Positions 34,651 through 37,175 of a stretch of 64,000 nucleotides of DNA are shown in pieces (within the stretch, counting starts at the first letter, position 1; every line of letters starts with the position of its first letter). Both the position numbers and the translations under genes were made by a program. Under the pieces are notes generated by a model. The model ran no database searches, was not told the DNA's origin, and was given only the letters and a program-made list of their open reading frames with translations. Source of the DNA: Nannochloropsis oceanica (Eukaryota > Sar > Eustigmatophyceae > Eustigmatales > Monodopsidaceae); the NCBI GenBank assembly GCA_004519485.1, contig CP038114.1, positions 310,001 to 374,000 on the forward strand. Direction: 5' to 3'.

Positions 34651-34654
34651 AAAA
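34651..34654 (-). terminator. Pol III terminator for tRNA-Lys(CUU)
   Basis: TTTT on the transcribed strand ten bases past the tRNA 3' end, backed up by a TTTTT at 34638-34642. Confidence 0.5.
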
Positions 34655-34663
34655 GAACACAGT

Positions 34664-34782
34664 CACCCAGTAAGGGGGTCGAACCCTTGGCCTTAAGATT
34701 AAGAGTCTTACGCTCTCATTTGCCGGGGCGGGATCTCGATCACACTTAATCCTTACACCGGAACCAACTGAGCTAACCGGGT
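34664..34782 (-). tRNA. tRNA-Lys(CUU) with a 45-base insertion in the D-loop
   Basis: All arms of a cloverleaf are present. The acceptor ACCCGGT pairs with ACTGGGT (one G-T). The D-stem GCTC/GAGC sits at 34770-34773 and 34712-34715. The anticodon stem TAAGA/TCTTA flanks loop CTCTTAA with anticodon CTT at 34703-34701. The T-stem AAGGG/CCCTT flanks TTCGACC, and the discriminator base is G. The D-loop is 54 bases instead of about 9: AGTTGGT, then about 45 extra bases, then GA. Without them the gene is a normal tRNA of 74 bases. There is no canonical intron at position 37/38. The insert includes two CCGG words that could pair. Ectopic tRNA introns in the D-arm are known from the red alga Cyanidioschyzon and from nucleomorphs. 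The insert could be a removed intron or mark a dead gene; the intact stems favour function. Confidence 0.85.
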
Positions 34783-37097: not shown

Positions 37098-37175
37098 CAC
37101 CGCCGTGGGGGGTCGATCCCCAGACCTTCAGGTTAAAAGCCCGACGCTCTACCAGTGGCACTGAGCTACGGCGGT
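37098..37175 (-). tRNA. tRNA-Lys(UUU) with an enlarged D-loop
   Basis: A complete cloverleaf. Acceptor ACCGCCG pairs perfectly with CGGCGGT. The D-stem is GCTC/GAGC; anticodon stem TCGGG/CCTGA has one G-T and loop CTTTTAA, anticodon TTT. The T-stem TGGGG/CCCCA flanks ATCGACC, and the discriminator is G. No intron lies in the anticodon loop. The D-loop is 13 bases (AGTGCCACTGGTA), about five more than the usual AGTTGGTA, and the extra part makes a small palindrome CAGTGCCACTG. It lies 2.3 kb from the other tRNA-Lys on the same strand; together they read both lysine codons. Confidence 0.93.

Follow-up and report, generated by a model that had tools for sequence, protein, structure and literature searches.

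In the nuclear genome of the alga Nannochloropsis oceanica, a tRNA-Lys(CUU) locus is very likely a working gene whose D-loop is interrupted by a 46-nt, protein-spliced intron at position 20/21. It belongs to a wider pattern: of the 28 distinct standard nuclear tRNA genes recovered from an incomplete and biased sample, 10 carry between them 11 introns outside the 37/38 site, four in D-loops and seven in T-arms, and 13 of the 28 have an intron of some kind. The locus lies in the window, a 64,000-nt stretch of DNA corresponding to C17:310001-374000 of a 29.26-Mb N. oceanica assembly with 32 contigs. The available text of the assembly report (PMC6610115) counts 30 nuclear pseudochromosomes, one mitochondrial and one chloroplast, and names tRNAscan-SE as the tool used for tRNA prediction.

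The gene is 119 nt long and occupies 34664..34782 on the minus strand, with acceptor base 1 at 34782 and the discriminator G at 34664, exactly where the preliminary description had placed a Lys(CUU) gene with a D-loop insert. Reading the locus as a cloverleaf likewise upheld its account of intact stems, a normal anticodon loop and a 54-nt D-loop. The acceptor stem ACCCGGT/ACTGGGT is paired at 7/7 positions, including one G-U, and the D-stem GCTC/GAGC at 4/4. The anticodon arm TAAGA CTCTTAA TCTTA has a complete stem (5/5) and an unbroken loop, CTCTTAA, with the anticodon CTT at 34701..34703 (-); the T-arm AAGGG TTCGACC CCCTT combines a complete stem (5/5) with the T-loop TTCGACC, and the variable loop is AGGCC. 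The A-box TAGCTCAGTTGG is intact upstream of the insert at 34764..34775 (-), as is the B-box GGTTCGACCCC at 34675..34685 (-), located by pattern matches at C17:344764-344775 and C17:344675-344685, respectively. A TTTT at 34651..34654 (-), nine bases past the discriminator, is a possible polymerase III terminator.

With every stem and both promoter boxes whole, the locus shows none of the decay of a pseudogene. That it is nonetheless a pseudogene broken by insertion, with AAG codons served by an unseen intact gene or by wobble of tRNA-Lys(UUU), is unlikely. Such a reading could draw on the statement, in the part of PMC4090602 available, that insertions in the D- and T-arms of eukaryotes lie mostly in redundant, presumed pseudogenes, and on the reach of the searches: the genome DNA search and the Rfam list, neither of which is exhaustive, contain no second Lys(CUU) copy, and Rfam missed at least three intact nuclear genes, Glu(CTC), Arg(ACG) and Pro(AGG). 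Against it stand the intact stems and boxes, the failure of the DNA search to list another copy, and the recurrence of the same pattern, with junction pairing, in ten isoacceptors including Phe, His and Asp. A scan of one viral contig for part of the Lys(CUU) gene gave no match. AAG is the commoner lysine codon, outnumbering AAA by 18 to 4 in the exon encoding RtcB and by 238 to 140 across 11 long stretches of the window that are free of stop codons.

The insert, read as an intron in preference to a break in a pseudogene, spans 34717..34762 (-), between AGTTGGT and A, and its removal leaves the D-loop AGTTGGTA. It therefore sits in the D-loop and not between positions 37 and 38 as a canonical intron would, in a tRNA gene that is otherwise intact. 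Around the junction, a central helix can form between the exon bases TTG (34765..34767, -) and the intron bases CAA (34720..34722, -), the fourth position being a G-A mismatch, and an inner helix between two intron CCGG segments (5′ side 34758..34761, 3′ side 34723..34726, both -). These three of four central pairs and four inner pairs, with no outer pair, amount to a bulge-helix-bulge (BHB) or half-BHB motif. Its score of 17 was equalled in 3/3000 shuffles and in 0/5000 under another shuffle scheme; the signal is weaker when the cut is left free, the best of 17 cuts being matched in 27/2000 shuffles. Removal of about 45 bases had been proposed to give a normal tRNA; a normal tRNA does result, with 46 nt as the best cut. 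The proposed join AGTTGGT|GAGAGC was one base off on its 3′ side, since it is AGTTGGT|AGAGC that yields both a standard D-loop and the BHB-type motif. The broader suggestion, that this nuclear tRNA gene of a stramenopile carries an ectopic intron in its D-loop, is supported: the host is a eustigmatophyte stramenopile, the junction motif is rare among shuffles, no second copy is listed, and nine further nuclear tRNA genes of the same genome have inserts in the D-loop or T-arm.

One point against this reading is that, folded without constraints, the Lys precursor does not adopt the cloverleaf at minimum energy; its intron is paired with the anticodon arm instead. The intron (34717-34762, -) contains a 7-nt antisense match to its own anticodon loop, seen in 38/2000 shuffles, and the minimum-energy fold of the naked precursor uses this match.

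Standard tools overlook the gene. Within the window, ARAGORN in default mode and Rfam at its gathering score both missed it and reported only a Lys(UUU) gene at 37175-37098. With introns allowed, ARAGORN misread the locus as an intron-bearing Leu(TAA); with the 46 nt left out, it read Lys(CTT). We used our own scanner, which looks for cloverleafs and tolerates inserts in the D-loop, the T-arm and the 37/38 site; it gave the Lys gene a score of 48.6. In its final form the scanner was run on 204 stretches, comprising 203 fetched loci and one piece of the window, with the loci drawn from Rfam matches and from A-box and B-box patterns. All 63 nuclear matches to GGTTCGANYCC (81 in total) were scanned; since the reversed control pattern gives 100 matches, those to GGTTCGANYCC are mostly chance. 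All 17 nuclear matches to TRRCCGAGYGGT were also scanned. From GGWTCAANYCC, 41 were selected among the matches listed (100 of 203), and from TRGCTCAGNNGG only those resembling a tRNA A-box were taken among the matches listed (100 of 113). TGGCGCARYGG contributed the 36 of its 73 matches that end in AATGG or AGTGG, and TRGTNTAGYGGT a further 26 stretches covering 43 matches.

A chance cloverleaf or an assembly error is an extremely unlikely explanation of the Lys locus. A search that permits long gaps has extra freedom, but when the same 204 stretches were read backwards on both strands none scored 34 or more, and the pattern recurs in nine other genes. One forward hit, L116, with a score of 35.9, was set aside as chance.

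The 28 genes comprise 26 found by the scanner, Leu(CAG) found by ARAGORN and Asp(GTC) found by eye, the last having escaped the scanner because of a D-stem mismatch. L116, the half-gene L040, the pseudogene L020 and two tRNA-Sec copies were left out of the count. The sample, incomplete and biased as it is, lacks for example Met, Trp and Cys tRNA genes. The Rfam tRNA search of the genome returned 59 matches, of which 14 were nuclear (13 genes and L020). It missed all ten genes with ectopic introns as well as the intact genes named above, and its gaps therefore prove nothing. A genome query of 16 joined human-type tRNAs yielded no candidate.

D-loop introns are present in Lys(CTT) (window 34664..34782, -), Arg(CCT) (C3:1320696-1320822), His(GTG) (C13:782690-782834) and Gly(TCC) (C16:125179-125375). 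His(GTG) has a 37/38 intron in addition, and Gly(TCC) has three introns, in the D-loop, in the T-arm and at 37/38. T-arm introns are also carried by Ser(GCT) (C11:907983-908142), which has a 37/38 intron as well, and by Phe(GAA) (C12:1104399-1104516), Pro(TGG) (C2:497827-497951), Gly(CCC) (C4:689118-689254), Gln(TTG) (C7:591048-591168) and Asp(GTC) (C18:164038-164158). The inserts in D-loops and T-arms are about 43 to 66 nt long. Six canonical 37/38 introns were found, in Asn, Tyr, Glu(TTC), Ser(GCT), His and Gly(TCC).

The T-arm introns are mostly compatible with a single site. In Gln the T-loop junction is fixed without sliding as TT|CGAAT, which is 55/56, and 55/56 is among the sliding alternatives for the T-loop introns of Phe, Gly(TCC), Pro, Gly(CCC) and Asp, so that 6/7 T-arm introns are compatible with this site. 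The exception is Ser, whose T-arm intron sits at 61/62 or 62/63. Among the D-loop introns, the Lys junction that yields the standard loop is 20/21, and those of Gly(TCC), His and Arg are not fixed. The T-loop inserts of these sister genes also bear on whether the Lys insert might simply be kept as a very long D-loop of the mature tRNA. The 13-nt D-loops of Lys(UUU) and Ala(CGC) may be kept, but the T-loop inserts split TT from CRA, which would be unworkable in a functional T-loop, and we know of no tRNA with a 54-nt D-loop. Retention is very unlikely.

In a BHB, the exon bases at -6 to -3 form a helix with the bases at -6 to -3 counted from the 3′ end of the intron, and past the bulges the two ends of the intron are paired together. 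This rule agrees with the available portions of PMC3978253 and PMC4090602. Each intron was compared with 3000 dinucleotide shuffles at fixed junctions. The fraction of shuffles scoring as well was 0 for the T-arm introns of Gly(CCC) and Ser (the better of two junctions for Ser), 0.001 for the Lys D-loop intron (best of three junctions), and 0.0013, 0.0027 and 0.003 for the T-arm introns of Phe, Gln and Asp, respectively. It was 0.012 for the Gly(TCC) D-loop intron (best of three), 0.023 for the Gly(TCC) T-arm intron, 0.039 and 0.125 for the D-loop introns of Arg and His (each best of three) and 0.278 for the Pro T-arm intron. Taken singly and after correction, none of the Arg, His and Pro inserts has a significant BHB-type motif. 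When values were multiplied by the number of junctions tried, zeros were set to 1 in 3000 and the results were combined by Fisher's method, the 11 ectopic introns gave 2.9e-12, or 6.5e-11 without Lys, and the six 55/56 introns gave 6.8e-9. The six canonical 37/38 introns showed no BHB-type excess (Fisher 0.12, single values 0.047 to 0.68). An earlier version of the test, which scored whichever allowed cut was best, gave weaker results: as with Lys (27/2000), signals fell to 25/2000 for Phe, 4/2000 for Ser, 105/2000 for the Gly(TCC) D-loop intron and 111/2000 for its T-arm intron, while Arg (654/2000) and His (388/2000), each the best of 17 cuts, were at plain chance level. The presence of a pairing excess in the ectopic introns but not in those at 37/38 fits an enzyme that finds 37/38 by way of the tRNA body and relies on BHB-type structure at other sites.

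Splicing in silico restored recognizable tRNAs. For the ten genes with ectopic introns, ARAGORN called the expected tRNA in 10/10 spliced forms, compared with 2/10 unspliced forms (Phe with shifted ends and Pro cut short). The junctions used here were picked for standard loops, and that of Arg is not the best-pairing one; the result therefore speaks for consistency and not for splicing itself. A further locus, L020 301-371 (C16:426250-426320), is intronless and identical to the spliced Gly(CCC) sequence at 64/71 positions. The alignment is gap-free from base 2 to the end, spanning 55/56, and CCA follows. On inspection, the acceptor stem has lost two pairs and the D-stem one, though the locus still exceeds the Rfam cut-off at 34.7 bits. 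Judged from these features, L020 is probably a retrocopy of a spliced, CCA-tailed Gly(CCC) tRNA, which would be an indirect sign that this tRNA loses its intron. No target-site duplication was seen at the locus, and the alternative is an old intronless gene copy with a CCA by chance, which would arise 1 time in 64.

The genome encodes parts of a Sen-type splicing machinery and a ligase. A tRNA endonuclease catalytic domain of Sen34 type is encoded in two exons at a single locus, C15:810834-811162. PF01974 scores the exons at 30 and 16 bits apart and at E 5.8e-16 when joined, and among solved structures the domain most resembles an EndA-like protein (5x89, 1.6e-13) and several Sen34 chains (4.9e-11 at best). 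RtcB is encoded at C10:361566-362840 (E 9.6e-155). An exon-by-exon gene search, a weak one, revealed no second PF01974 locus at E values up to 10. Because only this one locus was found, Sen2 was not identified, and the parts found include neither Sen2 nor Sen54 nor Sen15.

These findings suggest a scheme for the Lys gene. Given its intact A- and B-boxes, polymerase III would transcribe it through to the TTTT at 34654-34651. In the transcript, exon TTG would pair with intron CAA and CCGG with CCGG, in line with their complementarity, placing each junction beside a short bulge; a Sen-type endonuclease would then cut both sites and RtcB would join the exons into the standard D-loop. The same scheme would operate in no fewer than nine further nuclear tRNA genes, beside ordinary 37/38 introns. 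With introns in the D-loops and T-arms of ten genes, the endonuclease would have to accept BHB-type structure at several sites of the cloverleaf. Archaeal enzymes accept such structure at several cloverleaf places. As a tentative and rather doubtful proposal, an archaeal-like, structure-guided enzyme may act at the favoured sites 20/21, 37/38 and 55/56, the trait having perhaps reached the stramenopile nucleus with the red algal endosymbiont.

The closest known parallel is the red alga Cyanidioschyzon merolae, in which more than 62% of nuclear tRNA genes contain introns and at least 12 contain several, three of these in the D-, anticodon and T-arms (PMC9602550). The two share, as far as the available texts describe C. 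merolae, nuclear introns in these three arms, up to three per gene, with BHB-type junctions. The arrangement has been studied experimentally in C. merolae, whereas splicing in N. oceanica is deduced from sequence. The C. merolae introns are scattered over the cloverleaf (PMC3978253, available part), as are its permuted junctions, in contrast to N. oceanica, where 6/7 T-arm introns are compatible with 55/56. Intron-bearing genes are also the majority there, compared with 13/28 of those found here, and the N. oceanica host is a stramenopile. No permuted tRNA gene was met among the loci examined, in an unsystematic search. A table from 2014 names, in the part available, C. merolae as the sole eukaryotic nucleus with multiple-intron tRNAs (PMC4033280).

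The nucleomorph of Guillardia theta, likewise an algal nucleus, has introns in D- and T-arms, with some genes containing several (PMC4090602 and PMC3978253, available parts). These are 3 to 24 nt long, with excision demonstrated by RT-PCR (PMC4090602, available part), and many lack a defined BHB, whereas those of N. oceanica are longer, mostly have the motif and reside in a main nucleus. Archaea such as the Thermoproteales have introns at 20/21 and 56/57, for example, with several in one gene and with BHB or half-BHB junctions (PMC4090602, available part); N. oceanica differs in being eukaryotic and in having 37/38 introns without BHB excess. Canonical eukaryotic introns, of which N. oceanica has six, differ from the ectopic ones in position and in showing no pairing excess. 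Eukaryotic splicing has been held to be pinned to 37/38 by an endonuclease that measures the tRNA body (available text of PMC3978253). In the open-licence literature searched, we found no report of ectopic tRNA introns in Nannochloropsis, a eustigmatophyte or a stramenopile nucleus.

Taken together, these results very probably extend a known kind of intron system to a new major lineage. Until now the trait had been associated with a red alga and with nucleomorphs; its occurrence in the main nucleus of a stramenopile is relevant to what red algae contributed to such nuclei, and if an endosymbiont origin were true, tRNA gene structure would record the merging of two nuclei. As a cultured alga, N. 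oceanica offers a workable system for learning how a eukaryotic endonuclease escapes the 37/38 ruler. Such genes escape standard annotation, so the annotated gene sets of N. oceanica and its relatives may lack essential tRNAs.

Two further ideas about the introns came to little. Among 16 introns, 3/120 pairs fell below 0.01 against 1.2 expected, no clear sign of transposition. Of introns carrying a second B-box, only the 37/38 intron of Gly(TCC) (L024) is striking, with a perfect B-box GGTTCGAGTCC inside a T-arm-like hairpin; the idea is unsupported because this locus was itself found by a B-box pattern.

Several minor features were also recorded. The D-loops of tRNA-Lys(UUU) (window 37098-37175, -) and tRNA-Ala(CGC) (L016 301-378, +), AGTGCCACTGGTA and AGTGTTTCTGGTA, are both 13 nt long, five bases over the usual eight before TGGTA; the extra bases are either kept or very short introns. 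On C7:1151838-1174730, partly covered by L161, fourteen copies of TGGTGTAGTGGT form a tandem array with a spacing of about 1.75 kb, and the scanner saw no tRNA in the fetched part. About 40 bases upstream of tRNA-His, at C13:782846-782856 (L059), there is a GC-rich stretch with a lone B-box GGTTCGAGCCC; it looks like a T-arm without a clear 5′ half. Finally, L065 590-821 (-) on C18 contains two tandem gene copies 174 bases apart; their anticodon loop is CTTCAAA and their variable arm is long, and we read them as putative tRNA-Sec(UCA) genes.
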